Positions 14,328-39,484 of a DNA stretch of 44,124 nucleotides are shown piece after piece. The DNA comes from Chelativorans multitrophicus (lineage in GTDB: Bacteria > Pseudomonadota > Alphaproteobacteria > Rhizobiales > Rhizobiaceae). Every line of letters starts with the position of its first letter. Position 1 is the stretch's first letter. The position numbers were made by a program, and so were the translations under genes. Below the pieces are notes generated by a model. It was not told the origin of the DNA. It worked only from the letters and a program-made list of their open reading frames with translations, and did not search any database. The DNA lies in assembly GCF_011317445.1 (NCBI RefSeq), contig NZ_JAAAPL010000011.1:1-44124 (forward strand). Direction: 5' to 3'.

Positions 14328-14333
14328 CGATCT

Positions 14334-14389: not shown

Positions 14390-14395
14390 GCGGCT

Positions 14396-20462: not shown

Positions 20463-20999
20463 GCCTTCCTGCGTGGCATGAGGAGCCGATCTCCAAGGAG
20501 CACGATCGGGGCGGCTTCGATTGCGGCGATCCCGACATGAACGTGTTTCTCGCTCGCTATGCGCGTCAGAGCCATGAACAGAACGCCACAAAGACCTATT
20601 GCGCGATCGAAACGGCGCGGCCTGGGCACGTATTGGGATTCTATTCGATTGCCCCTCGGCTGTCGCCCACGCTGCCGTGCCGTCGCGGATACCGAAGGGG
20701 CTCGCGCGTCACGAGGTCCCAGGTTTTTTGTTGGCGCGGATTGCCACCGATAAATCGGTTGCGGGGGAGGGGCTTGGTGGACAGTTGTTGGTAGCCGCAG
20801 CCAGGCGGTGCCTTCGTCTGGTGGCGGGAGGGCGGCGGCATTCTCATGATCATCGACGCCAAGGGCGAACGCGCGGCCAGGTGGTACGAATCCTTTGGGG
20901 CCGAGCGCTTGCGCGACCAACCTGAAGGCCACGCTCCACGGCTGGTGCTCCACCTGACGACGTTCGCGACCGATCTGCGAGCTTCCGGCCATCTCTGAT
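20459..20999 (+). pseudogene. tacT: TacT-like GNAT toxin, two frameshifts
   Basis: TacT toxins acetylate aminoacyl-tRNAs. Three frames are needed here: the first gives EEPISKEHDRGGFDCGDPDM and VLGFYSIAP, the second VPSRIPKGLARHEVPGFLLA and DKSVAGEGLGGQLLVAAARR (the acetyl-CoA site), and the third ILMIIDAKGERAARWYESFG and LHLTTFATDLRASGHL. The breaks are at the CCCC run at 20652-20655 (one base short) and at about 20815-20835. Every family segment is present, so the breaks are recent or are sequence errors. Confidence 0.8.
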
Positions 21000-21387: not shown

Positions 21388-22401
21388 ATGATTCTTCGGC
21401 CCAAACCTTTACCGTCTCGCCTTACCTCGCGCGGCGCCGCCGCGTCGGCCGCGCCGGGAGCGACGGTGCCAGCCTGGCTGCGCCGTGCTGTCCCGGATCC
21501 GCAAAGCCTTGCGGGAAAACAAGTCGAGGACGTCGCGCTCACCGCAGGCGCTGTCCTCGGCGCGCTCGATGCGGTGGTCCGCCGGCAGGAGCGCTGGGCC
21601 GGGGCCTGGCGGCAGCGACTGGCGCTTGCCGCCGCCGCGGTAACGGCACAGCAGGCCGCCCGAGTCGAGGATGAGGCGGCGCTGCGCGATGCCGCGCTGC
21701 TGACGAAGGCTGGTGACGATGTGGGCCCCGCGGGCCGCATGCTTTTGGCGTGGCGCCGGTTGGCCACTCTGCCGCCGGAGGACTTGCTGACGGGAAAAAA
21801 CCTCGGCGCAGTGCCCGAGGAGTTCGGCCACGCTTCTGACGGTGAGGCTATCAACGAGCTGCTGGGCGAGCTCCACCGGCTCTCCGCAGGCGGGATTGTC
21901 GAGATGGTGACTGGTGCCTTCACCGCCGCCGAGCAATACGGCGTAGGGCGCGCGGTCGGCGCCTGGCTCGCCGACGCTCTTGTCGCGCAGCGTCTGGGCT
22001 GGACCCATGCCGTGCCGCTGCTGGGCGCGGAGGTGAATGCAGGTCGCGGTGCCAGTCGTCCGCGCCGATTTGGAACCGCCATTTTGGCGGGCATGGAAGA
22101 TAAAGGCGCTCAGGTGAAGAGCCTGCTTGCCGCCCAGGCCCGTGCTGCGTTGCGCGCGGTTGATCTGTCCTCCGAACTCGGTCGCCGATCCGAGCGGCTG
22201 CTGGCGGTGGCGCCGAAGTTGCGGGCTCGGGCGTCCGATCTTGTCGTCGAAAGACTGTTGTCCGACGATGCGATTGTCGCGTCCGAGAACATCGCCGGTA
22301 TGAGCGACCGCGGCCTGCGTCGCCTGTTCGACCGGCTGGTGGAACTCGGCGTCGTGCGTGAGCTGTCCGGCCGACCAACCTTCCGCATCTACGGGCTGTA
22401 A
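21388..22401 (+). CDS. DUF1403-family protein
   Basis: A 337-aa protein of the DUF1403 family, found mainly in rhizobia and near integrative elements; its function is unknown. It is alanine-rich and helical, with LAGKQVEDVALTAGAVLGAL near residue 40, WLADALVAQRLGWTHAVPLL near 200, and a C-terminal winged-helix-like end (LRRLFDRLVELGVVRELSGR). The ATG at 21388 is used; it has no strong ribosome-binding site. scpB begins five bases after its stop, so the two are an operon. Confidence 0.8.
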   Translation: MILRPKPLPSRLTSRGAAASAAPGATVPAWLRRAVPDPQSLAGKQVEDVALTAGAVLGALDAVVRRQERWAGAWRQRLALAAAAVTAQQAARVEDEAALRDAALLTKAGDDVGPAGRMLLAWRRLATLPPEDLLTGKNLGAVPEEFGHASDGEAINELLGELHRLSAGGIVEMVTGAFTAAEQYGVGRAVGAWLADALVAQRLGWTHAVPLLGAEVNAGRGASRPRRFGTAILAGMEDKGAQVKSLLAAQARAALRAVDLSSELGRRSERLLAVAPKLRARASDLVVERLLSDDAIVASENIAGMSDRGLRRLFDRLVELGVVRELSGRPTFRIYGL

Positions 22402-22406
22402 AGACG

Positions 22407-23102
22407 ATGGCGGAGGCTGCGCGCAAACGACGGGGCAGGGCGGACGAAGATGCCCTGTTCGATCGCGAGCTGGATCACCTGCCGCCGGAAGCACGCTGGC
22501 GCGAATGGATGCAGCGGGTCGAGGCGACGATTTTTGCCGCCAGCGAACCGGTCGGGCGCGAGACGCTGGCAAAGATCGTCGGCAAAACCTGCAGCATTGA
22601 TCTGCTCATCGACGACATCCGCGAGGAACTGCGCGGCCGGCCTTATGATCTCGTTGCGGTCGCCGGTGGCTGGAAACACCTGACCCGGCCGGCCTATGCC
22701 GACGCCATCCGGACGGCCGTCGGTGGAGGTGAGAAGGCGACCAACCTGACGCAGTCCGAGGTGCTGGTGCTGATGTGCATCGGCTATTTCCAGCCGATCA
22801 CGCGCGGAGAGCTTTCTTCCTTCTTCGGCAAGGAAGTGTCGCGCGACCTGATCGGCCATCTGCGCGGCGCAAAGCTGATCGCGTCGGGACCGCGCAGCCC
22901 GACGCCGGGTGCTCCCTATACTTACGTCACGACAAAGGAGTTCCTGCTGGAGTTCGGGCTCGACACGCTGCGCGACCTGCCGGATTTTGAGGCGCTAGAG
23001 GACGCCGGGCTGTTGTCGAAGGAGAAGCTGCTGGCCGGAGACGTCATTTCGAACTTTGCCGGCAACGGCGAGTCGGAAATCGGCATGATGGCCGATGAAT
23101 AG
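22407..23102 (+). CDS. scpB: ScpB-like segregation and condensation protein
   Basis: A 231-aa homologue of ScpB, the winged-helix kleisin partner of SMC. Recognisable parts are RVEATIFAASEPVGRETLAK, LVAVAGGWKHLTRPAYADAI, LTQSEVLVLMCIGYFQPITR and APYTYVTTKEFLLEFGLDTL. Chromosomal ScpB normally pairs with ScpA; no scpA is nearby, and it instead follows DUF1403. It may be a plasmid-specific version acting with DUF1403 or the tyrosine recombinase; that link is inferred. Confidence 0.85.
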   Translation: MAEAARKRRGRADEDALFDRELDHLPPEARWREWMQRVEATIFAASEPVGRETLAKIVGKTCSIDLLIDDIREELRGRPYDLVAVAGGWKHLTRPAYADAIRTAVGGGEKATNLTQSEVLVLMCIGYFQPITRGELSSFFGKEVSRDLIGHLRGAKLIASGPRSPTPGAPYTYVTTKEFLLEFGLDTLRDLPDFEALEDAGLLSKEKLLAGDVISNFAGNGESEIGMMADE

Positions 23103-23398: not shown

Positions 23399-24511
23399 AT
23401 GGACGGCAACAGCTTGGATTTTACGGCCATCCGCGGCGTGCAGGCTGGCAGCGCTTACTTTGTCATCATGGTCCCGCTGAAGGTCGTGCCACGGCTGTTC
23501 AAGTTCGACGACGAGGCTATGCCGGCTGAGTTGCGCGCACAACGGGTGTTGAACAGAGCGCGGGTCCCAGCGATCGCGGCCTACATCACCAACAACGCAT
23601 CAGAATATATTCTCTCGTCACTGTGCGCTTCGATCGACGGCGAGATCGAATTCGAACCGGCGGCGACGGAGGGTCCGTTGCGAGCTGTCGGAAAGTTGCG
23701 CATCGCCATGGCCGCGACAATCCTCATCAATGACGGCCAGCACCGGCGGGCGGCGATTGAAGAAGCGATCCGCGAACGACCGCTACTCGGCGATGAGACC
23801 ATCTCAGTGGTGGTGTTCGCCGATCGAGGTCTCAAGCGTTCGCAGCAGATGTTCGCGGACCTCAACATCCATGCGGTGCGGCCGACGAAGTCGATCAAGC
23901 TGCTCTACAACCATCGCGACGCGTTGGCGGCCCTTTCTCGCGACGTCGTCGCTGCCGTGCCGTTGTTTCGCGACTTCACTTGCTACGACAGCAGCAGCAT
24001 TTCCAACCGGTCGATCAAGCTGTTCACGCTTAGTAGCCTGCACCAGGCGACGGCCGAAGTGATCGGGAAAAGCGGCGCAGGCCAGGTGGAGCCTGACGAC
24101 AAGGACAAGGCCATCGCCTTTTGGACGGCAGTTATTGCCAACATGCCGGATTGGCAGCGGGTGGGAACGCGTGACGTCGCCTCCTACGAGCTGCGGCGAG
24201 ACTACATACACGCTCATGGCGTGGCGGTGCAGGCGATCGCGACGGCAGGCGCGCAGTTGATGAAGAGCGTGCCAAAGGCTTGGCCAGCGCGTCTGGCCAA
24301 GCTGCGCACCATTGACTGGTCGCGGGCCAATCGTGCGCTTTGGGACAATCGCGCCTTGGTCGCCGGCAAGGTGAACAAGTCGAAAAACAACGTAACCCTC
24401 GTGACCAATGTGGTTGTAACGGCTTTAGGCCTGCCGCTGTCCGCTGAAGCCCAGCGGATCGAGGACCTCTACGCACCCTCAACCGAGGCGCGGCTGAAGG
24501 TCGCAAGCTGA
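23399..24511 (+). CDS. dndB: DndB, regulator of DNA phosphorothioation
   Basis: A 370-aa DGQHR-domain protein, first gene of the dnd operon. DndB represses dnd transcription and tunes modification frequency. The hallmark ILINDGQHRRAAIEEAI is near residue 110; FADLNIHAVRPTKSIKLLYN follows. The ATG at 23399 has GGAG eight bases upstream; another ATG at 23392 is out of frame. Its stop overlaps the dndC start (TGATG). The ~296 bases upstream have no gene and should hold the operon promoter and any DndB operator. Confidence 0.88.
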   Translation: MDGNSLDFTAIRGVQAGSAYFVIMVPLKVVPRLFKFDDEAMPAELRAQRVLNRARVPAIAAYITNNASEYILSSLCASIDGEIEFEPAATEGPLRAVGKLRIAMAATILINDGQHRRAAIEEAIRERPLLGDETISVVVFADRGLKRSQQMFADLNIHAVRPTKSIKLLYNHRDALAALSRDVVAAVPLFRDFTCYDSSSISNRSIKLFTLSSLHQATAEVIGKSGAGQVEPDDKDKAIAFWTAVIANMPDWQRVGTRDVASYELRRDYIHAHGVAVQAIATAGAQLMKSVPKAWPARLAKLRTIDWSRANRALWDNRALVAGKVNKSKNNVTLVTNVVVTALGLPLSAEAQRIEDLYAPSTEARLKVAS

Positions 24512-25998
24512 TGGTGCGGCCCTCGCCTTTGGATGGTGCCATCGTCGAAAGCCGGCTCCGCGAGATACGGGAGGTATACCTTTCCGACAATCGCCCATGG
24601 GTGATCGGCTATTCCGGCGGCAAAGACTCAACCTGCGCCCTACAGCTGGTTTGGACAGCCCTGCTCGGCCTGCCCGCCGAACATCGGACGAAGCCGGTCT
24701 ATGTGATCACCTCGGATACCTTGGTCGAGACGCCAGTGATTGTCCGCTACATCGACGTGACGCTGGCCCGCATTGCGGCGGCCGCGGCCGAACAGGGCCT
24801 ACCTATTAAGACTGAGAAAGTGACGCCCAACGTTGACCGCAGCTTCTGGGTTAACCTGATCGGTCGGGGCTATCCCGCGCCATCTCGCCGGTTCCGCTGG
24901 TGCACCGAGCGCCTGAAAATCGAGCCGGCCAACGACTTCATCAAGGCGCGCGTCGCCGAGTTCGGCGAGGTCGTTATGGTGTTGGGTGTTCGCTCGTCGG
25001 AGAGCGCTACGCGGGCCCAGGTCATGTCGTTCCACCGCATCAAGGGCTCGGTGCTCTCCCGGCATTCCTCGCTACAGAACGCCTTCGTCTATGGGCCCAT
25101 CGAGGCCTTTTCGACGGACGATGTCTGGACCTACCTGCTGCAAAGCCCGTCGCCTTGGGGGAACAACAACCGCGACCTCGTGGCGATGTATCGCAACGCC
25201 CAGGCGGGCGAGTGTCCACTGGTGGTGGACACCACGACACCCAGCTGCGGCAATTCCCGGTTTGGGTGCTGGGTCTGCACCGTGGTCGAACGGGATCGCT
25301 CGATGGAGGCGATGATCGATTCCGGTGAGGATTGGCTTGAGCCACTTCTGGAATTCCGAGATCTGCTGGCTGAGACTCAAACGCCCGAGAAGAAGCGGCT
25401 TTATCGGGAATTCCGTCGCCGTAACGGCCACGTCTCCTTCATCCGGGGCACTGACACCCCCGTGCCCGGACCCTATACGCTGACCTACTGCAAGACCCTC
25501 CTAGAGCGTCTGCTCGAAACGCAGGTGCGTGTACAGCGCGAGGCGCCGCCCGGCGACGACACTCTGTTGATCCACGATGCGGAGCTGCATGAGATTCGCC
25601 GCATCTGGCGCGCTGAGCGGGGCGATTGGGCCGACTCGGTTCCGACCATCGTGCGCGCGGCCATTGGCCGCGAGCTCGACTGGGTGATGGAAGACAGTGT
25701 CAGGTTCACGGCTGAGGACGGCCGCCTGCTCGAGGAGGTTTGTAGCGAGCGTTCTGTGCCGACCGAGCTAATCATACGATTGCTCGACGTGGAACGCGCC
25801 GCCCATGGCCTGAAGCGCCGACACGCCATCCATACCCGGATCGAGGAGTTGTTTCGTCAGGAGTGGCGCGACCTCGAGACGGTGCTGCAGGAACGCCTGG
25901 GGAGCCGCTCGGCGGACATTGTTGAGGTCGATGATCTCGAGGAGGCTGACGCGCTGGAGTTGCCATTAGGGGACGCGCAGGCGGAGAGCGCGCCGTGA
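24511..25998 (+). CDS. dndC: DndC, phosphorothioation ATP pyrophosphatase
   Basis: A 495-aa PP-loop enzyme of the PAPS reductase family that activates DNA for sulfur insertion and carries a 4Fe-4S cluster. The PP-loop WVIGYSGGKDSTCALQL is at about 31-47. Cysteines likely to hold the cluster are in RFRWCTERLK, TTPSCGNSRFGCWVCTVVE. The length is usual. It overlaps dndB and ends by overlapping the GTG of dndD, so translation is coupled. Everything needed for activity appears intact. Confidence 0.93.
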   Translation: MVRPSPLDGAIVESRLREIREVYLSDNRPWVIGYSGGKDSTCALQLVWTALLGLPAEHRTKPVYVITSDTLVETPVIVRYIDVTLARIAAAAAEQGLPIKTEKVTPNVDRSFWVNLIGRGYPAPSRRFRWCTERLKIEPANDFIKARVAEFGEVVMVLGVRSSESATRAQVMSFHRIKGSVLSRHSSLQNAFVYGPIEAFSTDDVWTYLLQSPSPWGNNNRDLVAMYRNAQAGECPLVVDTTTPSCGNSRFGCWVCTVVERDRSMEAMIDSGEDWLEPLLEFRDLLAETQTPEKKRLYREFRRRNGHVSFIRGTDTPVPGPYTLTYCKTLLERLLETQVRVQREAPPGDDTLLIHDAELHEIRRIWRAERGDWADSVPTIVRAAIGRELDWVMEDSVRFTAEDGRLLEEVCSERSVPTELIIRLLDVERAAHGLKRRHAIHTRIEELFRQEWRDLETVLQERLGSRSADIVEVDDLEEADALELPLGDAQAESAP

Positions 25999-28010
25999 TC
26001 CTGCGTAGCATCAGACTTGAAGACTTTGGCCTTTATGCGGGGGTGACCGATTTGGATCTCGTCCCGCGACAGCGCTTGGGCGGTCCAACGCCGATCATTC
26101 TGATCGGTGGGAAGAACGGCGCTGGAAAGACGACGCTCCTGGAAGCGGTTCGCCTTGCGCTCTATGGTCGGCGAGCCCTTGGCGCTCGCGTCAGCCAAGC
26201 TGACTACGAGGCCTACCTGCGTCAACGTATCAATCGCGACGCGACAACTCCCGCGGCCGCCGTCGCCCTGGAGTTCGACTACGCCGAGGCCGGGACGGTG
26301 CATCGCTACCGCGTCCGGCGGGAGTGGGCGGTGCGCGGCAAGAGCCTTGTCGAGAGCTTGCTTCTCGACAAGGACGGAGCGGCAATCGCCTCGGTACCGC
26401 GCGAGGAATGGCACCACTTCCTTCAGGAGCTGATCCCCCCTGGAGTTTCGCAACTGTTCTTTTTCGATGGCGAGAAGATCGGCGAGATCGCCGATGCCGA
26501 GGAAGACAACGAGCAGTTGGCCGAAGCCGTTCGGGGCCTGCTCGGGATCGAGCTGGTCGGCCGCCTGCGCACTGACTTGGGGCTCTATCTCGCCCGGCAT
26601 CAGCGGGACGATGATGGGGAACTCGTCACTCGTCTTGAAAACCTGCTCCGCGACATCAGCGTCGCCGAGCGCCAAGCCACGGTGCTGGGCGACGAGGTTG
26701 CCGAGTTCACGTCGGCGCGAGACTCCCAGGCGCGCGCGGCGGAGCAGGTGAGGCGCCGATTTGTCGCCGAAGGCGGTGACGCGGCGGTTCATCGGGTCCG
26801 GATCGAGGCCGAACGTGAGGAAGTCCGGCGCGCCATGCACCGCAGCGAGCATGAACTTCGGGATCTCGCCAACAAGCTACTGCCGTTCTCTATGGCGCCG
26901 AAGCTGATTGGCGCGTTCCGCAAAGCGCTGTCCCGCGTGAGCGGTGGCGACGCTACGGCGATGTCCACCGAAGCGCTAGAGAAAGCGCTGGTAGCTTGGC
27001 GCACCGGCGACGGGCCTAAGCGTAACGCTGCCTGGAGCGAAAAGCACTGGACCGACCTTCGACGTTTCATGGAAGCCCATAGCGGCAGGGCGGCACTGGC
27101 TGTGACGTCGCCGGCGTTCCGCGAAGTGGGTGACGGCACCGCAGCCTTGACCCGGCTGGCGGAGGTCGAAACCGTGGTGCGGCCGCGGGCGCTCGCCCTG
27201 CTGGACGAATTTGACGCGCTCGCTCGGCGCAGTCGCGAGTTGGAGGTCATGCTCGCTCGGGCCGATAACGCCGCCTCGGGGATCATGCTCGACGAGCTGC
27301 GCTTAGCCGATCAAAGGGTCGGATCGACGGAATCGCTCCTCAAGGGTAAGCAAGAGGAGCTCAAGCTGCTCCGGGGCCAGTTGGTCACGATGGAGCGTGA
27401 GCGCCGACGTCTTCTTGAGGAGCAGGCCGGTTCGGACGCCGCGACGCACCGGGCGGAACTCGCCTCCCGGACTGCACAGGCCCTCGCGGACTACGAGCAT
27501 CGCCTTTTGGACCACAAGCTTACGCAGCTGCGCGCCGAATTCGTGCGCTGCTTCAATCACCTCGTGCGAAAGGTCGATCTAATCGCCGACGTGCGCATCG
27601 ACTCGGCGTCCTTCGCGGCCACCCTGATAGACGCTGCCGGCCGCGAAGTGCCGAAGGCGGCACTCTCGGCGGGAGAAAAGCAGGTCTACGCCATAGCCAT
27701 GCTATGGGCTTTGGCGCGGACCAGCGGCCGGCCGCTGCCGATGATTATCGACACCCCGCTGGCGCGGCTTGATTCCGAGCACCGAGCCAATCTCGTCGGA
27801 CGTTATTTTCCTGCCGCGTCACATCAGGTGATCTTGCTATCGACCGACACCGAAATCGACGATCACCTCGTCGGGGACCTGCAGGCCAGCGTCTCGCACG
27901 CCTATCGCCTGGACTATGACCCGGCCAGCGGCCGAACGGTGGCCTCGCATGGCTACTTCGCTGATACCCAAACCAAGCGGGAGGGCCGTCGTGCACTACA
28001 GCAAGCTTAG
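25995..28010 (+). CDS. dndD: DndD, phosphorothioation ABC/SMC-like ATPase
   Basis: A 671-aa SMC-like ATPase that nicks DNA or provides energy in the Dnd complex. The Walker A IGGKNGAGKTTLLEAVRL is at about 38, SQLFFFDGEKIGEIAD is a DndD signature near 155, the ABC signature is ALSAGEKQVYAIAMLW, and Walker B is LPMIIDTPLARLDS. A charged coiled-coil region links the two ATPase halves. The GTG start overlaps the dndC stop. dndE begins 20 bases before its end. Confidence 0.92.
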   Translation: MILRSIRLEDFGLYAGVTDLDLVPRQRLGGPTPIILIGGKNGAGKTTLLEAVRLALYGRRALGARVSQADYEAYLRQRINRDATTPAAAVALEFDYAEAGTVHRYRVRREWAVRGKSLVESLLLDKDGAAIASVPREEWHHFLQELIPPGVSQLFFFDGEKIGEIADAEEDNEQLAEAVRGLLGIELVGRLRTDLGLYLARHQRDDDGELVTRLENLLRDISVAERQATVLGDEVAEFTSARDSQARAAEQVRRRFVAEGGDAAVHRVRIEAEREEVRRAMHRSEHELRDLANKLLPFSMAPKLIGAFRKALSRVSGGDATAMSTEALEKALVAWRTGDGPKRNAAWSEKHWTDLRRFMEAHSGRAALAVTSPAFREVGDGTAALTRLAEVETVVRPRALALLDEFDALARRSRELEVMLARADNAASGIMLDELRLADQRVGSTESLLKGKQEELKLLRGQLVTMERERRRLLEEQAGSDAATHRAELASRTAQALADYEHRLLDHKLTQLRAEFVRCFNHLVRKVDLIADVRIDSASFAATLIDAAGREVPKAALSAGEKQVYAIAMLWALARTSGRPLPMIIDTPLARLDSEHRANLVGRYFPAASHQVILLSTDTEIDDHLVGDLQASVSHAYRLDYDPASGRTVASHGYFADTQTKREGRRALQQA

Positions 28011-28368
28011 GATTTCCGCTGACGCCACCAGCAAGCTGCGGTCGCTGCGCCAGCGCACAGGCGTCACACCCAACCTGCTTTGCCGGATGGCCATCATGAC
28101 CTCGCTCGAGGAAGGCCCGCTTGGCGGCGCCGCCATACCAGACGAGGACGGCTCGGAGTTCAACGCCTACACGCTAACTGGCGAGTATGGGGCATTGATA
28201 GCCGCCTTTCTGCGCTTCGTCGAAGAGGGCCAGGAACCCGACCCGCCGCTCGAGGACGAGATTTTGCTGGACCGGTTGCGGGGCCACATTCATCGGGGCG
28301 TCGGGACTTTGTCGGTGCGGGCAAAGTCGCCGGCCGACATCCTGCGCCTCGTGCCGACTTCCGCCTGA
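27991..28368 (+). CDS. dndE: DndE, phosphorothioation protein
   Basis: A 125-aa DndE, which binds nicked DNA and works with DndC and DndD. The opening HYSKLRISADATSKLRSLRQ and the middle CRMAIMTSLEEGP are typical, followed by an acidic ELTGEYG-like segment (NAYTLTGEYGALIAAFLRF). The GTG at 27991 has GGGAGGG about five bases upstream and overlaps dndD in another frame. Confidence 0.9.
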   Translation: MHYSKLRISADATSKLRSLRQRTGVTPNLLCRMAIMTSLEEGPLGGAAIPDEDGSEFNAYTLTGEYGALIAAFLRFVEEGQEPDPPLEDEILLDRLRGHIHRGVGTLSVRAKSPADILRLVPTSA

Positions 28369-28379
28369 GCGATCGCGCC

Positions 28380-29546
28380 GTGGCCAGTCCCCTCTATCTC
28401 GATCACAACGCTACGACGCCGATCGATCCAGCCGTTGTCGCCGCGATGGAGCCCTTCCTGCGCGAGATATTCGGGAATCCGGCAAGCGTCGAACACGCGC
28501 ATGGTCATGCGGCCGGGTTGGCGGTGGACCGCGCGCGGGCGCAAGTGGCCGAAGCGCTGGGAGCGCAGCCTAAGGAGATCGTGTTCACCGGCAGTTGCAC
28601 CGAGGCAAACAACCTCGCGATCCTGGGCGTCGCACGGGCTCACCCTAACAAGAAGCATATCGTCACCACCGCAATCGAACACCCCGCGATCCTTGAGCCG
28701 GCCCGCGCGCTTGAGCGAGATGGCTGGCGCGTCACGTACGCGCCGGTGGACGAGGCTGGTCGGGTGAGCGTCGATGCGATCGCGGATGCGATCACCGACG
28801 AAACGACCCTGGTCTCGGTAATGGCGGCAAACAACGAGGTCGGGACGCTTCAACCCATTCGGGCAATCGGCGAACTCTGTGAAGCGCGCGGCGTGCTCTT
28901 CCACAGCGACCTGGCTCAGGTGGTCGCCTATGGCACGGTGGACGTCGAGCGCGACCACATTCATTTGGCCAGCCTGTCAGCCCATAAGGCCTATGGGCCG
29001 AAGGGCATCGGCGCGCTCTACATCCGCTCGCGCAAACCCAAGGCCCGCGTCGCCCCGATCTTCTTCGGCGGCGGTCAGGAGCGCGGTCTGCGCCCGGGGA
29101 CCTTGAACACCGCCGCTATAGTCGGGATGGGCGAAGCCTTGGCGATCGCGCGGCGCTGCGCGCAGGCGGATGGCGTTCGTCTTCGTGCCATGTGCAACCT
29201 GTTTCGCGACAGGCTTCAAACAAGCCTGCCCGGCGTCAAGCTCAACGGGCACCCGGCGGAGCGGCTGGCCAACAACCTATCGTTCTCGATCGAAGGGGTC
29301 GAACCACTGGCCCTGATCCGCAACTTGCGAGCGGACCTGAGTTTCTCTGCCGCCAGCGCCTGCGCAACGGACAAGATCGAGACTTCCCACGTCCTGAAGG
29401 CGATGTTCGGCGACACGGGGCGCGCGCGAACCGCGTTCCGGATCGCGCCAGGGCGTCACACCTCGCAAGCCGACATGGACTGCGCCCTTGACCTAATTCT
29501 CGCCGAAGCGGGAATATTGAGCAGCTTCGCCCGGCCCGCGGCCTGA
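28380..29546 (+). CDS. dndA: DndA/IscS-type cysteine desulfurase
   Basis: A 388-aa PLP-dependent cysteine desulfurase that supplies sulfur to DndC. It opens LYLDHNATTPIDPAVVAAM, with TGSCTEANNLAILG, the PLP lysine in HLASLSAHKAYGPKGIGALY, and the catalytic cysteine in FSAASACATDKIETSHVL. The GTG start at 28380 is eleven bases after dndE. In many dnd loci dndA is divergent or absent; here it is the last gene of the operon, so all five proteins can be made from one message. Confidence 0.9.
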   Translation: MASPLYLDHNATTPIDPAVVAAMEPFLREIFGNPASVEHAHGHAAGLAVDRARAQVAEALGAQPKEIVFTGSCTEANNLAILGVARAHPNKKHIVTTAIEHPAILEPARALERDGWRVTYAPVDEAGRVSVDAIADAITDETTLVSVMAANNEVGTLQPIRAIGELCEARGVLFHSDLAQVVAYGTVDVERDHIHLASLSAHKAYGPKGIGALYIRSRKPKARVAPIFFGGGQERGLRPGTLNTAAIVGMGEALAIARRCAQADGVRLRAMCNLFRDRLQTSLPGVKLNGHPAERLANNLSFSIEGVEPLALIRNLRADLSFSAASACATDKIETSHVLKAMFGDTGRARTAFRIAPGRHTSQADMDCALDLILAEAGILSSFARPAA

Positions 29547-29552
29547 CCGGCT

Positions 29553-30710
29553 TCAAGGAGTCATGCGAAACACTTTCAGGGCGACTTGTTCCAGGTCGGT
29601 CTGCCGCGCTTCGACAACCGCCGCGGTCCAAGCAGCGTTCTTGGCGATCTCCTGATTGAGGCCGACAAGCGATTTCTCGAAGATGGCCTTCTTTTTAGCA
29701 AAGGGCTTGTTGCCAGCGGCGTCGTTGTCGGTCGAACCCAGAAGCGTCAGATTACCCAAGGTGTCGAGCAAGGGATCAAGGCTTGCATCGGCGGCTGAGG
29801 CTTTCTCTGGGTAAACGTGTTCCACCGTCGTTGCCGACGGATCAAACACTACCATCTTGTCCAGGCACCTTGGCGCGCCCTTCGCCCCATCGCGATACCA
29901 GCGGAGATAGCTCTCTAAGGTGATAAGCAGGTACTTCAGAGGCTTATTGGTGAGCTCGCGCTCATACATCATGCCCTGAAGCCGGCTTTTGAAGACGGCG
30001 TCGTTGGCGCTCTTGTCGAGCAGCGCCTGAAGCTTCTTACGGAGGTTAGCGATCTTGTATGCCGCCGGCGCCTTGCGGATAGCCACGGCCTGCTCGTGGT
30101 AGACGCTGGTCGCCGCCCCAATGTGGGCATCGGAAATCACCTTGTAGCGGAACATGAAGCGCTCAAGCATCTGCACGACATCGGCGAAGTCCTTCTCGGC
30201 CAACTGAGTGGCGGCGAGTAGCAGCGGCATGCAGTTTGTGTGCTTGAGCTCGTTGATGAGGAGGCCCAAGCGACTGCGGTCCCAGGCGGTGACCTTGGTG
30301 CTGGACGAGAACGGCCATTCGCCGCCCTGTAGCTTCACCAGCAGATGGATCTCCTCATGCAGCTTCTTGACCTTGGCGACGACCCCGGCAACGTCGCCAG
30401 CCGACAAGGGCAAGCTGGCGAGTTCGGGAAAACAGCCGGCGAGGAATTCGTCCAGCAAGGTCGTCTTCCCCGGCCGTTTGCCAATCCGGGAGGCATAGAT
30501 CGAGCGCAGTTGCTGTTCGACCACGTCAGGCGGCTCTGCCAAGATTGTGTCCCAAGTATCCTCGACGCTTTGCATCTCGACTGGGGTCGCGACGCCGTCG
30601 AGCGCCTCAAGAAGCTGCGCGCGGAGCAGTTCGCCTTCGGTGAGGCCTGTCCCACGATCGTTTAAGACTCGGAAGAGGCGGTAGGCTTCAGCCTTGGAGT
30701 CAGTGATCAT
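29553..30710 (-). CDS. GmrSD-like nuclease, C-terminal part (end of DUF262 + DUF1524)
   Basis: This frame holds the rest of a GmrSD-type enzyme whose N-terminal part is in the overlapping frame at 30700-31371. It starts MITDSKAEAYRLFRVLNDRG, the end of the DUF262 domain, and runs to a DUF1524 HNH-type nuclease with TTVEHVYPEKAS, LDTLGNLTLLGSTDND and GNKPFAKKKAIFEKS. The nuclease residues are intact. DUF262+DUF1524 proteins include GmrSD, BrxU and the phosphorothioate-sensing SspE. Here the gene meets the dnd operon tail to tail, only six bases after dndA. The break inside DUF262 at about 30719 suggests a frameshift; the internal ATG could still allow separate translation. Confidence 0.8.
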   Translation of the reverse strand: MITDSKAEAYRLFRVLNDRGTGLTEGELLRAQLLEALDGVATPVEMQSVEDTWDTILAEPPDVVEQQLRSIYASRIGKRPGKTTLLDEFLAGCFPELASLPLSAGDVAGVVAKVKKLHEEIHLLVKLQGGEWPFSSSTKVTAWDRSRLGLLINELKHTNCMPLLLAATQLAEKDFADVVQMLERFMFRYKVISDAHIGAATSVYHEQAVAIRKAPAAYKIANLRKKLQALLDKSANDAVFKSRLQGMMYERELTNKPLKYLLITLESYLRWYRDGAKGAPRCLDKMVVFDPSATTVEHVYPEKASAADASLDPLLDTLGNLTLLGSTDNDAAGNKPFAKKKAIFEKSLVGLNQEIAKNAAWTAAVVEARQTDLEQVALKVFRMTP

Positions 30711-31371
30711 GTGGATGAGGATTCCAGTCCTCCTCCATCACGGTGTCGACTAGGGAGAGGGCCTGCGCTTTTTCGACGTCCGTGTTCTCGCTGGCGACAA
30801 TCTGTGCTAGCTTCGCCCCTATTCGGTCCCAGGCCTGCTTGAGCAGCCTGTGAGACATGCGACTCGGGGTCGGGTTGCGGCCTTCGACGAGGTCCTTGAA
30901 GAAGATCAGGTCGGGTTTGGAAAGTTCAAGCCTGTCGATTTCGACGACCTGCAGCTTGATCTTGTCCTTATACCGCTCGAACTCCGCCTTCAGGGTCTTG
31001 GCGAACTCCAGCAGGAATTCCTTGGGATTATCCGGCACTGCGGCGTCCACCGACTCCGCAAGCTGAACAGCGGCGTTGCGCAACTGCGCCGCTAGCATGG
31101 AGAACGACGCCAACCGTTGCTGACCGTCGATGACCTCCATGTTTTGGCGGGAGCTCCCCTCGACGTCCGTACGGACGGTCACCAGGCCGCCGAAGAAATG
31201 CTCGCGGCGATTGCCGCCGGCGCGCGCCTTCAGGCAGAGTTCGAGGTCCGCGAGGAAGTCGCCGATCTGCTCGGCGTCCCAAGCGTAGTAGCGCTGGTAG
31301 CGCGGGACACGGAAAATGAGGTTAGCTCCGAAAAGCTGGCCGACGCTTTCCAATGCGGGATGGATCGACAT
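30700..31371 (-). CDS. GmrSD-like nuclease, N-terminal part (DUF262), frameshifted
   Basis: The first 223 residues of a DUF262 NTPase/sensor protein: LIFRVPRYQRYYAWDAEQIG near residue 18, HFFGGLVTVRT, and the nucleotide site MEVIDGQQRLASFSMLAAQL near 80. It ends EEDWNPHPHDH; one base fewer at 30719-30720 would read EEDWN-IHMITDSKAEAYRL and join the next frame, giving about 605 residues, normal for the family. In SspE and GmrS the DGQQR motif couples nucleotide use to recognition of modified DNA. The ATG at 31371 is 21 bases after the 153-aa gene. Confidence 0.8.
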   Translation of the reverse strand: MSIHPALESVGQLFGANLIFRVPRYQRYYAWDAEQIGDFLADLELCLKARAGGNRREHFFGGLVTVRTDVEGSSRQNMEVIDGQQRLASFSMLAAQLRNAAVQLAESVDAAVPDNPKEFLLEFAKTLKAEFERYKDKIKLQVVEIDRLELSKPDLIFFKDLVEGRNPTPSRMSHRLLKQAWDRIGAKLAQIVASENTDVEKAQALSLVDTVMEEDWNPHPHDH

Positions 31372-31392
31372 GCGGTTGGAACACTCCGGGGC

Positions 31393-31854
31393 TCAGGCGG
31401 TTGGCTCGGCGTCCACATGCCAGAAGCGGTGGTAGGCCACGAGGAATTCCTCGATCGTACTCGGTGGCATGATCTTGTCCTGGATCATCGCCAGGCCGGC
31501 GGCGGCGTAGAGATTCAGCAGCTTGTCGCCATCGTTGTTGAGGCGCGTGGCGGATGTCGGATCGATGAGCCGGGTCATCTCGCGTTCGATGCTGGCGCGG
31601 TCCTCGGCCTGGATGTCCTTGCGATCGAGCTCGGCGTCGATGAGCAGACCCGCGATGATGTCGGCTTGGCCCTTGAAGTCGTCCGGATAGCCATTGAGGA
31701 AGGGATCGCTGTCCAGGTCTTCCGCCGATCCGATCTTACGGGCGTCTAGGCCAGCCATCAGACAGCAGTAGTAGGCGTCGAACATCAGGAACTTCGGCGG
31801 GGCGATGATCCCGCGGAAAAATGTACGACCGGATTGGCTGATTACGAAGCTCAT
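31393..31854 (-). CDS. Conserved small component of the ATPase-helicase operon (153 aa)
   Basis: Function not known. The protein begins MSFVISQSGRTFFRGIIAPP and continues KFLMFDAYYCCLMAGLD; the end is FLVAYHRFWHVDAEPTA. Size, position directly after a DndD-like ABC ATPase and helical character recall the 'middle component' of ABC-three-component (ABC-3C) conflict systems; that assignment is an inference from context. The ATG overlaps the ATPase stop (ATGA), so the two are made together and probably bind each other. Confidence 0.65.
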   Translation of the reverse strand: MSFVISQSGRTFFRGIIAPPKFLMFDAYYCCLMAGLDARKIGSAEDLDSDPFLNGYPDDFKGQADIIAGLLIDAELDRKDIQAEDRASIEREMTRLIDPTSATRLNNDGDKLLNLYAAAGLAMIQDKIMPPSTIEEFLVAYHRFWHVDAEPTA

Positions 31855-33788
31855 GCTCCCGCCTCGACCTGATGGAACGACTGGAAGACCGGTAACCCGT
31901 CGCGAACCTCCGTGCGCTCGCTGTCAGCCCGCCAGAGTGTGATGTAGCGCACGCCCGTTCGGCCATAGAACGCGTCGGCGAAACCTTCCCGCTCGCTGGA
32001 GATTACGAACATGATCATCTGGTCGAAGAGGTCGGGGATTAGGTCGCCGACCTCGCGCCGCACTGCCGTGTCGAGTGAGACCGCTGGGCTATCGACGATA
32101 AAGGGCAGCTTGTAGGGTGCTTCGGTAAGCAGCGAGGTCAGGAAGGCGTAAGCCACTGCCAAGCTCTGGCCCTCGCTCACGCCGCCTTTGGCCGCCAGGC
32201 CGCTTGACCCGAGCTCTAGGGAGCCACCGATGCGCGCCACCTGCAGTAACTCGCTGGGGACGAACTGGACCAGCTTCGCATTGGTTGCGACCCGGACTCG
32301 TTCGCGCAGCCGCTCAAGGGCCAGCGCGGCGACCGTGCTCACGAGCTCCTTCACCCGCTCCGATTGGAGGACAAAACGCAGGGTGTCGGTGGCGGTCGCG
32401 AGCTTCTCCTGACAGCGCTTCACTTCTGCGTCGCAGAGCGGGATGTTATTTTGATCGCTGGCGTCCAACAGCCGTTGCCGGATCACGTCGCGGGTGGTGA
32501 GCTTTTCGAGTTTGGTCTCAGCGGTCTCCAAATCCCGACCCAGCTGATTAACCTCAGCGCGCAGGCGCTCGAGTTCGGTGTCGCCGGCCTCGACCCGCTC
32601 CAGTTCCAGCTGATCGTGCGCCCTCTTATTGCGCCGTAGGTCGCGCAGGGCACCGTTCAGCGTTGTGGCGATGCTGGTATATTCGGCCGCGTCGGCGCTG
32701 CTCTCGCGCAGGGCAAGCTTCATCTTGTTGATTACAAGGATTTGGTCCTCCGCAAGGTAGCTGTCGGCTCGCGATAGAATTGCCGCCTTGTCCTTCGGCG
32801 TGATCTCGCGGCCGCAGACACATTCGGGCTGTTCCGCCAACTCCTTGAAGAACTCGGCCGAAATCGTTTTTGGGAGCTTGAGCCGGGTCAACTTGTTGCC
32901 GAGTGCGCGCAACCGTTCGACTACGTTAGGATGGATCTTCGCTGGCAGCCGAAGGACGCCCATACCCTGGGTGGTGGCCTCGAAAATGGCGCGGTCGATA
33001 GTCTCGCGCTCGGAGTCCAACTGCGACTTGCGCAGCTTGAGCGCGTCGTCCTGCTCGATCCGCTCGTTGATCTCGGCCGCCAGGTTGGTCCGGCGTGCCT
33101 CCATTTCCTTGCGACGCTTCTGCAGTTCGCGCTGCTCGGCGGCCAAGGCCGTCTTGCGGGCGACGGCCGCGTCGTAGGCTCGCTTCCAGCGGGTTACCCC
33201 CTTGCGTTCAGTGGCGGTCGAGACCGCGGCCGCGCGCTGCTGTTGCTCCTCGACAAGCCGGCCGATCTGCACATTCAGGTGCTCCAGCCTGTCCAGGCGG
33301 TAAAGAGTTCGGATCGCCATCGCCGCCCGGTCCTTGCCCACCGCGCGAATCTCTTTGGCCAATTCCCCATCGAACACGAAGAGCCGCGTGAAGTCGGACG
33401 TCATGAGCCGCTTCAGATCGACCGGAAGGGAGAGGCCCTCTTCCAGGCCGCCGCTGCGGACCTCGGAACGGGCGGTCCAATATTGATGCGTGCCGTCCTT
33501 GAAGTTCAACCGGATCTGGATGCGAAACGGCTTGCGATCGATCGAGAGGCGGACCTCGAATAGGCCATTGTCGACGTCGTCGGCGGCGCGCAGATCGCGC
33601 ACAAATTCGGGCGTTAGGTGTTCGCCGGAGAACGCGGCCCGGAACAATGACATGGTCGTGGTCTTGCCTGTGCCGTTCGGCATCTGAATCAGGGTCCAAC
33701 GGCCCGGCGCGCTCTCCAGGTCGATGCTGACGTCGCGCAAACCGCCGCGCAGGTTCTCATAGCGCCAACCTAGAACCCTGATCTCCAC
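31851..33788 (-). CDS. DndD/SMC-like ABC ATPase with zinc-hook-like motif
   Basis: A 645-aa ATPase with split ABC halves and a coiled coil. The Walker A LIQMPNGTGKTTTMSLFRAA is near residue 35, LFVFDGELAKEIRAVGKD resembles the DndD FDGEKI motif near 140, PECVCGREITP near the middle is a zinc-hook-like CxC, the signature is GGVSEGQSLAVAYAFL, and Walker B is LPFIVDSPAVSLD. I use the GTG at 33788 with GGAGG upstream rather than an unsupported ATG further on the left of the transcript. It is a second DndD-type ATPase next to a complete dnd operon, in an operon with a helicase and a nuclease. Confidence 0.85.
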   Translation of the reverse strand: MEIRVLGWRYENLRGGLRDVSIDLESAPGRWTLIQMPNGTGKTTTMSLFRAAFSGEHLTPEFVRDLRAADDVDNGLFEVRLSIDRKPFRIQIRLNFKDGTHQYWTARSEVRSGGLEEGLSLPVDLKRLMTSDFTRLFVFDGELAKEIRAVGKDRAAMAIRTLYRLDRLEHLNVQIGRLVEEQQQRAAAVSTATERKGVTRWKRAYDAAVARKTALAAEQRELQKRRKEMEARRTNLAAEINERIEQDDALKLRKSQLDSERETIDRAIFEATTQGMGVLRLPAKIHPNVVERLRALGNKLTRLKLPKTISAEFFKELAEQPECVCGREITPKDKAAILSRADSYLAEDQILVINKMKLALRESSADAAEYTSIATTLNGALRDLRRNKRAHDQLELERVEAGDTELERLRAEVNQLGRDLETAETKLEKLTTRDVIRQRLLDASDQNNIPLCDAEVKRCQEKLATATDTLRFVLQSERVKELVSTVAALALERLRERVRVATNAKLVQFVPSELLQVARIGGSLELGSSGLAAKGGVSEGQSLAVAYAFLTSLLTEAPYKLPFIVDSPAVSLDTAVRREVGDLIPDLFDQMIMFVISSEREGFADAFYGRTGVRYITLWRADSERTEVRDGLPVFQSFHQVEAGA

Positions 33789-33789
33789 T

Positions 33790-33978
33790 TCAGTCCTCCA
33801 GGCCGTCGTCGATGGTGGCGAGCTCGATGACCTCGCGGACGTCGTCATCGCCGAGGTTCGAAGTTGTGGCGTTCTCGATTAGCTTGCGCAGCCGGCGCTT
33901 GAATTCCGCCGATTGATCGACGGCGGCCGACAAGGCTTCCGCTACCGCGGTGTCGAGGTCTGAGTGCAAGGCGCCCAC
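33790..33978 (-). CDS. Small acidic/helical protein (62 aa)
   Basis: Not recognised. It starts with GTG at 33978 after a GGGGA stretch and ends one base before the ATPase start, so it is clearly part of the operon. It is helical (DLDTAVAEALSAAVDQSAEF, KRRLRKLIENATT) with an acidic end (DDDVREVIELATIDDGLED). It could be a small subunit or adaptor of the ATPase; this is inferred from spacing only. Confidence 0.55.
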   Translation of the reverse strand: MGALHSDLDTAVAEALSAAVDQSAEFKRRLRKLIENATTSNLGDDDVREVIELATIDDGLED

Positions 33979-34038
33979 ACGCGATCCCCTTTTTTTGCTG
34001 CTTTAGTTGAAATGACGCTAGCACACAAAGCAGAATGG

Positions 34039-35697
34039 CTAGGTCTGTTTGCTAGCGGAGAGATCCCGAAACCAGTCACGACGCTCTTCGTCGGCGCTCA
34101 ATTCCCCAGTTGGATCATTTTGATCATCATGTTCCACTCGAATGAAGTCCACGACAGTGGCGCGCTTCTCGGTGTTGTTGGGGTCGATCCTCAGACACCG
34201 GCCGAGGCGTTGAACAGTCTCTAAGCGCGCCCGAGCTGAAGCGAAGAGAACTATGTTATTCACCGACTGAATGTCGATGCCTTCCGAAATCCGATGGCAG
34301 GTTACGAGGCAACCGAGCTCGCCGCGCGCAAAACGGCCAAGGTTCGCCCGGTCGTCATCCCCATAGTAGGTATGGAAATCGACATGCTGAGCCATGAGGA
34401 TGTCTTGAACGAGCAGACCATATTCCGCAGTCTCGACAAATATGAGCGAGCGCTGCAGAACTTCCGGATGCTCCCTCACGTAGGAGCGGAACGGCGGGAT
34501 CTTCTCCTGGGACAGTTTGCGTATGCGTGCGATGTCTTGATACAGCGCTTCAATCGGGGGTGCGTCACCGGCGCGTGCCTTTGCGTGATAGCGGCGGATC
34601 GCCAGGGCCAAGGCCGCGCGATCCTCGTCGGAAAATTCATACTCTAGCTCTACATAGTCGAAGCCGCAGAGAATGCCTTTTTGGATGGCGTCCTTCAGGC
34701 CGAACTCGAAGATCACCGGCCCGATTTCGTCTTCGATGAAGCGATTGCCGTCGCCGTCATATTCGCGCTCGGGGGTGGCGCTTAGGCCGAGCCGGTAGGC
34801 GAACGGCCTTAAACGACCGGCCAGTGACGCAACCAGGCTGGGCGATCCCATCCCATGCACTTCGTCGCAGATGAGCAGCGCCTTGGCGAAGGCACCAGCA
34901 CGCAGTTTCGGCAGGATGTCGGCGAGCGACTGACGAGACGCCAGCAAGATCGCGCCGTCGGGATCGTTCAGGAACGACTGCGCCTCATGATGGCGTTCGT
35001 AGGCCCGGAAGACCGGCATGGTCGTGCGGCGAACCAGCTCCTTGTGCCATTGGTCGAGCAAGTCGGTGCCATAGGCCGCCACCACAGCGGTTTTGATCTC
35101 GCCACGCGCTTGGAGTTCCTCGGCGATGGTTAGTGCAGTTCGTGTTTTTCCCGTGCCGGTCGCCATTTCCAGAATGCCGGCCTTAGCCTTGAGAAAAGCG
35201 GCGACTGCATCGCGCTGATGCTCCCATCGAACGGCGCCGCCCTCCGCTTCCGCCGGTGGCGCCGGATAAGGCCGCGCCGTGCGGCTCGTGAACTCGATCA
35301 AATTGCGCCGAACAGCGTCTGGCAGGTCATAGACCCTCAGATTGATGTCACCGTTGTTCCAGATGAGGTTGAACCGCTCCTGCTCGTTCTGGACTCGCAT
35401 GGCCTCGCGACCGTCTATCCAGGAATAGAAAACACTAATCGACTCGTAGTTTCGAAAAGCCTTTTCGCTGTCATTCGGTGACCCATGAAACGCTACCGCA
35501 TCCCCGGCCTCATCTCGAAAAGTCCCAAATTTGTCGTGGAAGTCGCCGTCCAGTTCCCCGGTCGGAATTGCAATTCTAAACTCAAGGAGGCCGTCCGCGA
35601 TCAGCCGGAACTCCCCTCCCGCAGGGTCAACGTGACGAGGCCCGGTGGTCGTGGGATTGATCCAGACAATATGCCCTAGGGATCCTTGGTCACGGTA
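34039..35697 (-). CDS. PLD-nuclease/SF2 helicase, 5' end missing
   Basis: The open frame runs left from a stop at 35698 without any start codon in its first part, so the gene is truncated. The remaining N-terminal part has the second half of a phospholipase-D-type nuclease: FHDKFGTFRDEAGDAVAFHG followed by SPNDSEKAFRNYESISVFYS (HxK, GSxN and NxE pattern). The helicase follows with LEMATGTGKTRTALTIAEEL (Walker A), LLICDEVHGM (DEVH), LGLSATPERE and VQRLGRCLRID (motif VI). If translation begins at the internal ATG 35400, a 453-aa helicase without nuclease would result. It is the first gene of the operon facing dnd. The break lies near 35640-35700. Confidence 0.82.
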   Translation of the reverse strand, partial: YRDQGSLGHIVWINPTTTGPRHVDPAGGEFRLIADGLLEFRIAIPTGELDGDFHDKFGTFRDEAGDAVAFHGSPNDSEKAFRNYESISVFYSWIDGREAMRVQNEQERFNLIWNNGDINLRVYDLPDAVRRNLIEFTSRTARPYPAPPAEAEGGAVRWEHQRDAVAAFLKAKAGILEMATGTGKTRTALTIAEELQARGEIKTAVVAAYGTDLLDQWHKELVRRTTMPVFRAYERHHEAQSFLNDPDGAILLASRQSLADILPKLRAGAFAKALLICDEVHGMGSPSLVASLAGRLRPFAYRLGLSATPEREYDGDGNRFIEDEIGPVIFEFGLKDAIQKGILCGFDYVELEYEFSDEDRAALALAIRRYHAKARAGDAPPIEALYQDIARIRKLSQEKIPPFRSYVREHPEVLQRSLIFVETAEYGLLVQDILMAQHVDFHTYYGDDDRANLGRFARGELGCLVTCHRISEGIDIQSVNNIVLFASARARLETVQRLGRCLRIDPNNTEKRATVVDFIRVEHDDQNDPTGELSADEERRDWFRDLSASKQT

Positions 35698-36025: not shown

Positions 36026-36958
36026 CTACGGGCCATCACTTTCAACGCCCAGGAATTCCGCGAGGTCGCGCACAAGCTTGCCGCGCACGCCCGCCGGGAG
36101 CTTGTCGAGATTGAGCTGCTTGAACCTGACGGCCGGAAGCTCCGCCGCTGCCGGCAGGCCCAGTTTGTCCCAGTCGGGCGTGCCATTCTTGAAGCCGACA
36201 AGGAACTCCCGGTGGGTGGCCGGCATGCCGCCGATCAGGCCTTTGACCAGCTGCTCCCGCGCGGCGATCAGTTCCTCGAGGGTGACGGGATCGCCGCCGG
36301 TCATGCCCACAAAATTGTTCTCGTACTCGGCGGCGATGTCTTTCTGCGGCGAGGCGATCACCTCCCGGATCGGCCGGCCATGGCTGATGAGATAGACGAT
36401 GAAGGCTTGCCGCAGCGTCTCATCGAGCCCTTCATTTGCAAGCAGATCGCGCACATCGAAAAGATCGCGCGGATGCTGCCGGTCAAGGGCCGCCATGATC
36501 TTGCCGGCATAAAGATCGGCGGGTGAGACGACCTGTATCTCCGCGAACCCGTACTCGTCTTCGACGGCCTGCGCCACGGGCCGGATGTCGGACGCGAACA
36601 CCGTGCCGCGCAGCACCGGTGTCACTTCGATCTTGATCTGCGTGCTGCCCAGCTGCACAATTAGCCGGGTGAGCGTGCCGTCCTGCTGGCGGCTCTCAGC
36701 CACCCTCGCCTTGCGCACGCCTTTCTCTATGCGCTCCTTGATCCGCAACAGCGCGGCCTTGATCGCGACGAGTGACTCCTCACGGCCGGCCACAGGAAGG
36801 AAGGTGAGGTCGATATCGACCGATAGGCGCGGCATGTTGCGAATAAAGAGATTGATCGCCGTGCCGCCTTTGAGCGCAAACTCCTTTTCGTCGGCAACGA
36901 ACGGCAGCACCTGCATAAGAAGCTGGACCTGCCGGCGATAATCTTCACTGACCGCCAT
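36026..36958 (-). CDS. abiEii: AbiEii-type nucleotidyltransferase toxin
   Basis: A 310-aa toxin of the AbiE type IV system, which adds nucleotides to tRNA and blocks growth after phage infection. The nucleotidyltransferase site is LKGGTAINLFIRNMPRLSVD then IDLTFLPVAG near residues 29-56. Later parts include LIVQLGSTQIKIEVTPVLRG and the AbiEii-type DLYAGKIMAALDRQHPRDLF. Length is typical and no break is seen. Its ATG lies 14 bases inside the end of the antitoxin gene, so translation is coupled. Confidence 0.9.
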   Translation of the reverse strand: MAVSEDYRRQVQLLMQVLPFVADEKEFALKGGTAINLFIRNMPRLSVDIDLTFLPVAGREESLVAIKAALLRIKERIEKGVRKARVAESRQQDGTLTRLIVQLGSTQIKIEVTPVLRGTVFASDIRPVAQAVEDEYGFAEIQVVSPADLYAGKIMAALDRQHPRDLFDVRDLLANEGLDETLRQAFIVYLISHGRPIREVIASPQKDIAAEYENNFVGMTGGDPVTLEELIAAREQLVKGLIGGMPATHREFLVGFKNGTPDWDKLGLPAAAELPAVRFKQLNLDKLPAGVRGKLVRDLAEFLGVESDGP

Positions 36959-37796
36959 AAAGCTCCTCCGGGACCGTGATCAGGTAGGTGGGATCGAGCC
37001 GGCCGCCATGAACCAGCAGGCGTTTGCCGGTGCCGAGATGAAAAGACTCCTTGTGAAGGTGCTTGCGCCACGGGTGGTTGTGACGGTCGGCGAAGAAGAA
37101 GAAGAGGCGCTTGACCTTGATGCTCTTGCAGTCGGAGAGCAGTTTCTGCAGTCGCCGGGGGCTAAGGGTGTTGAGCCCCTCGAACAGCTTGTCGGTCGCA
37201 TCGAAGCTTTCATGGGCAGGCAGCCCGTCCAGCATTTCAAGGATGGCGCGCTCCGGAGTCGAAAGCGTGAGGGGCCACTCCCAAGGTCCCCACGGCATGA
37301 CCCGGAACGAGCCGCCATGCAGGTTGTCGGCGCGGTGCGCGCTGTTATCCTTCAGGTTCCATTCAAGGCTCGTAAGCCCGAAATGTATCGGCTCGTTGGC
37401 GAACAGGGTGGCGCTGTTGTGATGAAGGAATCTGATCGGCAATGTCAGCTTGTTCAGCCAGGACGGCGGGTTCTCGGGTCCGTAGAGATGAACCTCCCGC
37501 TCCTCCTGCCGCAGGTAGTGGGAAAAGCCGTGAAGGGAAAGTGCTGTGCGTCCGCCGACGACAAGCGGCTTCAGGAGCAGGCTTTGCAGCGATATGACGA
37601 CATGCTGCCAGAGGAGCTTGCCGCCGGGCTTGCGGTAGACGCCATGGAAGGGACGCTCCAGCCAGCCGCTCAGAACGTACTTGCGCAGCAGCTGCGGAGA
37701 GTAGCCGCGCTCTTTGAGCCAGCCGGAATCCACGACCAGGCCCTCGGGGAGGAGACGCTGTAGCTGGTTTAACTTTCCAGTGGATTCTTCACTCAT
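36945..37796 (-). CDS. abiEi: AbiEi-type antitoxin and transcriptional regulator
   Basis: A 283-aa antitoxin. AbiEi proteins have an N-terminal winged helix that represses their own promoter and a C-terminal domain that counters the toxin. Here the N-terminus reads LVVDSGWLKERGYSPQLLRK then YVLSGWLERPFHGVYRKPGG, followed by VGGRTALSLHGFSHYL and STPERAILEMLDGLP. It is first in the pair; repeated sequences near 37779-37890 are likely operators. Confidence 0.9.
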   Translation of the reverse strand: MSEESTGKLNQLQRLLPEGLVVDSGWLKERGYSPQLLRKYVLSGWLERPFHGVYRKPGGKLLWQHVVISLQSLLLKPLVVGGRTALSLHGFSHYLRQEEREVHLYGPENPPSWLNKLTLPIRFLHHNSATLFANEPIHFGLTSLEWNLKDNSAHRADNLHGGSFRVMPWGPWEWPLTLSTPERAILEMLDGLPAHESFDATDKLFEGLNTLSPRRLQKLLSDCKSIKVKRLFFFFADRHNHPWRKHLHKESFHLGTGKRLLVHGGRLDPTYLITVPEELYGGQ

Positions 37797-39460: not shown

Positions 39461-39484
39461 GTTTGGCACATGGTAGAGCCAAAT

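Follow-up and report, generated by a model that had tools for sequence, protein, structure and literature searches.

A Dnd–PbeABCD phosphorothioation locus with a split DndI-family gene on a repABC plasmid of Chelativorans multitrophicus

Introduction

The closest described relative of the locus reported here is the DndCDEA–PbeABCD system of Haloterrigena jeotgali A29, in which the pbe genes follow the dnd genes in the order helicase/HKD protein, 66-aa small protein, ATPase and 152-aa DndE-like protein (Xiong 2019; PMC6459918). Phosphorothioate (PT)-dependent antiviral action has been published for these genes. The same study reports PT dependence and a need for each pbe gene, in part for pbeA; the terms orf5, DUF262, DUF1524, GmrSD and HNH are absent from it. 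An ATPase clade defined by a CxC motif was later equated with the PbeABCD of Xiong 2019 and described as part of CxC ABC-ATPase–DndE systems (Rakesh et al. 2024; PMC10853773). These systems have in common with the locus described below the CxC motif, a fused HKD and SF2 helicase protein, truncated in the latter, a small protein, a putative DndE-like cognate and a position beside dnd. In the accessible text, the nucleases that Rakesh et al. name at dnd loci are others than the DndI-like one found here, and DUF262 and GmrSD are absent from the main text.

DndI of Salmonella Cerro 87 (PDB 9JFL; PMC11662687) is a PT-sensing NTPase and nickase that contains DUF262 and DUF1524. The gene is co-transcribed with dndFGH, and the protein also works with IscS-DndBCDE in Escherichia coli JM109. 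By the count of the DndI paper, dndBCD and dndI occur together in the absence of dndFGH in 61 genomes. In the accessible text of a paper that mentions both DndI and PbeABCD, PbeABCD is named once, in the introduction. SspE is likewise a DUF262–DUF1524 PT sensor, and DndFGH is a restriction partner of Dnd, as pbe would be in the locus reported here. PbeABCD, the CxC–DndE module and DndI have thus each been published already. A description of an operon that joins Pbe to DndI was not found in the literature searched, with neither Xiong 2019 nor the main text of Rakesh 2024 containing DUF262 or GmrSD.

Overall organization of the locus

The window analysed here is the whole 44,124-nucleotide stretch of contig NZ_JAAAPL010000011.1 from Chelativorans multitrophicus. 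It contains two convergent operons, whose features are collected in Table 1. A preliminary description had proposed a dndBCDEA operon meeting a five-gene operon tail to tail with six bases between them. The ORF coordinates agree with this arrangement, and strong family matches place dndB, dndC, dndD, dndE and dndA in that order on the forward strand (23399–29546). The similarity scores of the locus genes are far beyond chance. No lesion was seen in any of the five dnd genes; for dndB, an alternative GTG start at 23396 would give 371 residues. The canonical DndD has one cysteine in the whole protein and hence no CxC motif.

Table 1. Features of the Dnd–Pbe locus, the replication genes of the window and the corresponding junction gene of locus L003
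Feature	Coordinates	Strand	Product and evidence
repC, repB, repA	13033–16638	-	replication/partition genes
dndB	23399–24511	+	370 aa from ATG; PADLOC DndB 496 bits; TIGR03233 446 bits (cut-off 328)
dndC	24511–25998	+	sulfurtransferase, 495 aa; PADLOC DndC 680 bits; TIGR03183 572 bits
dndD	25995–28010	+	canonical ABC ATPase, 671 aa; PADLOC DndD 714 bits; TIGR03185 502 bits
dndE	27991–28368	+	125 aa; PADLOC DndE 127 bits; TIGR03184 108 bits (cut-off 71.85)
dndA	28380–29546	+	cysteine desulfurase, 388 aa; TIGR03235 544 bits (cut-off 480)
Gap between convergent operons	29547–29552		six bases between the stop codons of dndA and the DndI-like gene
DndI-like gene, C-terminal piece	29553–30710	-	385 aa; GmrSD_C/DUF1524 HNH; Pfam PF07510 69 bits
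DndI-like gene, N-terminal piece	30700–31371	-	223 aa; GmrSD_N/DUF262; PRYQR and DGQQR; Pfam PF03235 78 bits
pbeD	31393–31854	-	153 aa; DndE-like predicted fold
pbeC	31851–33788	-	CxC-clade ABC ATPase, 645 aa, with CVC at residue 323; PADLOC PbeC best, 70 bits
pbeB (by position)	33790–33978	-	small protein, 62 aa, GTG start
pbeA remnant	34039–35604	-	HKD-motif region, then SF2 helicase; first ~122 residues gone
HNH+HIT protein gene (locus L003)	L003: 12488–13552	-	354 aa; between pbeD and dndA, on the strand of dnd, in the place of the window's DndI-like gene

All five facing genes are present as described, with two amendments: the PLD-nuclease/SF2 helicase has lost its N-terminus, and the DUF262–DUF1524 gene lies in two frames. 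The proposal that they form an alternative PT-linked module, neither DndFGH nor Ssp, agrees with their PADLOC assignments to PbeA, PbeC and Orf5. There is no dndFGH among the identified ORFs of the locus, and the facing genes are of the pbe type. A search of the window's genome for DndH (TIGR03238) gave no match, and its controls were silent too. The modification genes are dnd and not ssp, and the combination of SspE with sspABCD is not found here.

The facing pbe operon

The gene order and sizes of the facing operon equal those of the published pbeABCD, and as in H. jeotgali A29 the PLD/helicase, small protein, ATPase and DndE-like protein lie in this order beside dnd. The window differs in that pbe is convergent to dnd instead of following it, in the additional dndB and fifth, DndI-like gene, and in the truncation of PbeA (PMC6459918). 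The ATPase contains the CxC motif that defines PbeC, as do all 120 of its relatives among the matches listed (CVC in 107, CIC in 13). Its start is most likely the GTG at 33788, which gives 645 residues, as in its close relatives, rather than the initial ATG of the program-made frame (33848).

The 62-aa protein occupies the slot of PbeB between pbeA and pbeC and is recognized by position, not by family model: Pfam Sp-CxC gives 16.8 bits, under the cut-off of 27.5, and PADLOC, with its PbeB model included, gives no match. The protein can be aligned with small proteins of the same slot in 11 loci and has hits in 15. For the 153-aa protein, the match of the predicted fold is DndE. Because hhalign against DndE (probability 0.44, E 0.13) and a profile search of the PDB (E 0.44 and above only) score weakly, the DndE identity draws on predicted fold, position, size and published annotation, by which the protein appears to correspond to the DndE-like PbeD. 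An NCBIfam run on five small proteins and PbeD gave no match. No lesion was seen in pbeB, pbeC or pbeD. The facing genes are very probably the PbeABCD, or CxC ABC-ATPase–DndE, module already described (PMC6459918, PMC10853773). The preliminary description had allowed that its proteins might belong to a described and unrelated system; the system is indeed described, but it is related to Dnd.

The fifth gene is closest to DndI

The last gene of the operon had been likened to GmrSD and SspE. The likeness holds at the level of domains, but the nearest relative is DndI. For each of the two pieces, 9JFL is the sole PDB hit at E ≤ 0.001, with 210 bits over chain residues 217–594 for the C-terminal piece and 63 bits for the N-terminal piece. 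A profile of six intact DndI-like relatives matches 9JFL end to end with 374 bits (profile 16–616 on chain 2–594). SspE was rejected as the nearest relative on scores: the same profile gives it 70 bits, and the best stretch covers profile positions 15–131 only. The P-x-Y-Q sensing region, the DGQQR motif and the HNH asparagine of 9JFL align with counterparts in the window pieces. These features recur among the 112 relatives of at least 560 aa in the matches listed: 111 have DGQQR, 107 have P-x-Y-Q-R and 103 have a pattern EH..GN..N. The sensing tyrosine is replaced by phenylalanine in two of six intact loci (L007 and L008), which argues against PT sensing being uniform in the family. In genomic position the window's gene departs from Salmonella Cerro 87 DndI, lying split behind pbeD instead of in a transcript with dndFGH (PMC11662687).

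PADLOC Orf5, a PADLOC-DB entry without description, is the best family for the window pieces (470 bits for the C-terminal and 231 bits for the N-terminal piece). It is also the best family for three intact relatives (704, 641 and 1094 bits), which the HEC-06 models of PADLOC match less well; the fit of these relatives (641–1094 bits) indicates that the curators have seen this gene. A scan of 385 genomes with Orf5 gave 15 matches at E ≤ 1e-40, the window's own included. The others score 230 bits or less and, at such scores, probably represent different DUF262 families.

Distribution among PbeC loci

Scanning named genomes with an alignment of PbeC yielded 31 loci, a sample biased to likeness with the window's ATPase subfamily. 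Gene calls identified PbeA in all 31, PbeD and an intact CxC ATPase in 30 each, and dndC in 25; hits prior to gene calling numbered 26 for DndC and seven for Orf5 pieces. Absences are upper limits, since several contigs end nearby. Relative to pbe, dndC is convergent in 10 loci, co-directional in 10, divergent in five and not seen in six. The preliminary description had considered that the genes might occur mostly without dnd. This is not so in the present sample, where dndC is near 25 of 31 loci, but Xiong 2019 reports dndCD near only 233 of 553 PbeAC (PMC6459918). Among plasmids, one of Rhizobium leguminosarum WSM1689 is annotated with the same convergent layout, the fifth gene being absent and the small protein labelled 'CxC ATPase DNA modification system associated small protein'. 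In Halorubrum trapanicum CBA1232, which Xiong 2019 mentions by name (PMC6459918), dndCDEA and the four pbe-type genes lie on a plasmid.

It is quite possible that pbe and the DndI-like gene are separate devices that happen to be neighbours, with the DndI-like protein working with dndBCDEA alone; in E. coli JM109, DndI works in this way with IscS-DndBCDE and no DndFGH (PMC11662687). In 25 of the 31 loci, no DndI-like gene was found beside PbeD. The Orf5 hit of L025 is weaker (196 bits) and lies elsewhere, on the opposite strand, and the junction of L003, the locus closest to the window on the PbeC tree, has no DndI-like gene and an HNH–HIT gene instead. On the other hand, the Orf5 hit lies directly downstream of pbeD on the same strand in six of the seven loci that have one, and in these six of 31 loci a DndI-like gene is called there. 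In a tree of 33 PbeC proteins (the window, 30 of the 31 loci and two plasmid copies), parts of which some long branches make unsure, a DndI-like gene next to pbeD occurs only within one clade of 11 rows (support 98/97), in seven of them, the window included. Its distribution takes two changes on this tree, a number reached in 0 of 500 shuffles, as expected of an operon member. Lists of 120 PbeC and 120 Orf5 relatives also have 19 contig sizes in common, compared with 0–2 in ten shifted controls. Further Pbe–DndI loci may be present among the 61 genomes that have dndBCD and dndI and lack dndFGH (PMC11662687).

Apparent damage to the nuclease genes

The two pieces of the DndI-like gene (31371–30700 and 30710–29553) lie in different frames and do not form one continuous gene; the window copy is at most a broken member of the DndI family. 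A programmed frameshift was judged unlikely because 112 of 120 relatives among the matches listed have at least 560 aa in a single frame, the window's protein being one of the eight short ones, and the four closest have 605 aa. These four are 89–96% identical to the window over the C-terminal piece. A genome search listed no second copy of Orf5 in the window's genome, and none of PbeA.

The truncation of pbeA is of a different kind. PbeA homology begins at 35604, which corresponds to residue 123 of 644 in the intact L003 protein, and none was found upstream of this point. PADLOC PbeA gives 521 bits on 34039–35400 and up to 69 bits on 35401–35697. The HDKFGTF motif is in frame (about 35538, computed), but the first in-frame ATG, GTG or TTG is downstream of it, at 35400. 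An ordinary start could yield the helicase part but not the nuclease motif. The preliminary assignment to a PLD-nuclease/SF2 helicase is thus right for the family, with the N-terminus lost and the motif placed before the first start. Among 385 genomes of the class, 133 match PADLOC PbeA at E ≤ 0.001, a tally that is unusable as a frequency since 11 of 14 control genomes match too; above 200 bits there are only seven places, the window's own among them.

Both lesions could be sequencing or assembly artefacts in a locus that is intact and active. The window comes from the assembly of a single genome, and the ATPase, the small proteins and the dnd genes are free of lesions. We consider this explanation unlikely, as two unlike lesions, a change of frame and an N-terminal loss without PbeA homology, in both nuclease genes are hard to produce by assembly error alone. 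The cluster that contains the window's 301-aa fragment also occurs on two contigs among the matches listed, although the second could stem from the same genome, obtained from a different source.

Plasmid setting

The presence of repABC genes, together with matches to the S-element and ctRNA_p42d RNAs in the repC–repB interval, identifies the contig as a repABC plasmid or part of one. The first 23.3 kb of the window resembles 302 plasmid records, of which Rhizobium (108), Agrobacterium (71) and Mesorhizobium (37) form the biggest groups; none reaches 80% coverage. A DNA search of plasmids with the pbe half gave five records, again none with 80% coverage. A search for the ATPase in 40 other relatives, including 15 from the same genus, gave no match at E ≤ 1e-30, which agrees with acquisition of the plasmid locus.

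Several neighbouring genes were also recognized. An AbiEii/AbiEi type IV toxin–antitoxin pair (36026–37796, reverse strand; PADLOC 389 and 320 bits) lies upstream of the truncated pbeA. At 20175–20794 (forward strand), a TacA1-like antitoxin gene (82 bits) is followed by a short ORF without a Pfam match, which may encode a shortened GNAT toxin, judging from its sequence and from a GNAT/DUF1778 pair on a similar plasmid. A DUF1403 gene and an ScpB-like gene stand in tandem (21388–23102, forward strand), and the majority of the ten rhizobial-type plasmids that match best have this pair too. A Hydantoinase A fragment (39434–40000, forward strand; 174 bits over profile positions 101–282 of 291), apparently a remnant, precedes an aldehyde dehydrogenase gene (40037–41554).

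Discussion

Pfam contains models of ABC-3C middle components. The best Pfam family for the 153-aa protein is no better than E 0.12 and its predicted fold points to DndE, so it finds no support as such a component. The preliminary view of an undescribed restriction module, with an ABC-3C-like core of ATPase and middle component joined to a GmrSD effector, draws on a single operon that holds an ABC ATPase, small proteins and a GmrSD-type effector, and on a weak PADLOC LmuB match of the ATPase (41 bits), but it is unsupported and highly improbable given the PADLOC assignments to PbeA, PbeC and Orf5, the CxC motif of the ATPase, the resemblance of the predicted PbeD fold to DndE and the agreement of order and sizes with published pbeABCD (PMC6459918).

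We conclude that this repABC plasmid very probably carries a Dnd–PbeABCD island for PT defence, in which a DndI-family gene is the fifth of the pbe operon, and that the island is partly decayed. In intact relatives, the Dnd proteins insert sulfur into the DNA backbone at a short motif, with DndB as the reported regulator of this step. Following the proposal of Rakesh 2024, PbeC, the CxC ABC ATPase, and PbeD, a DndE-like DNA binder, may scan DNA, and PbeB may be a small regulator. PbeA, with its HKD nuclease and fused SF2 helicase, would serve as the motor and nuclease arm, and PbeABCD together would block incoming DNA without the sulfur mark. The DndI-like protein may act as a second sensor, whose DUF262 half would read the mark and hydrolyse NTP to release marked self DNA, while the HNH half would nick DNA without the mark. 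The two effectors may act side by side.

In the window, no damage is apparent in the modification half or in PbeBCD, but both nuclease proteins look damaged. From this pattern of lesions, the plasmid would be expected still to mark its DNA, with restriction weak or lost. We tentatively suggest that PbeABCD and a DndI-family nuclease constitute a two-effector Dnd subtype, in which PbeCD would scan and engage PbeA and the DndI-like protein would be a backup that reads the mark and nicks unmarked DNA. The junction on the dnd side would then be an exchangeable nuclease slot, and this plasmid would have lost both nuclease arms and kept the mark.

The locus provides a bacterial, plasmid-borne Dnd–Pbe example whose pbe operon includes a DndI-family gene. 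Should the pairing prove functional, it would join two published PT-dependent effectors in one unit and offer a test system for the dispute over DNA cleavage by Pbe and over how Pbe relates to the other restriction modules of Dnd. In its decayed state, this copy would be an example from nature of modification retained after the loss of restriction.
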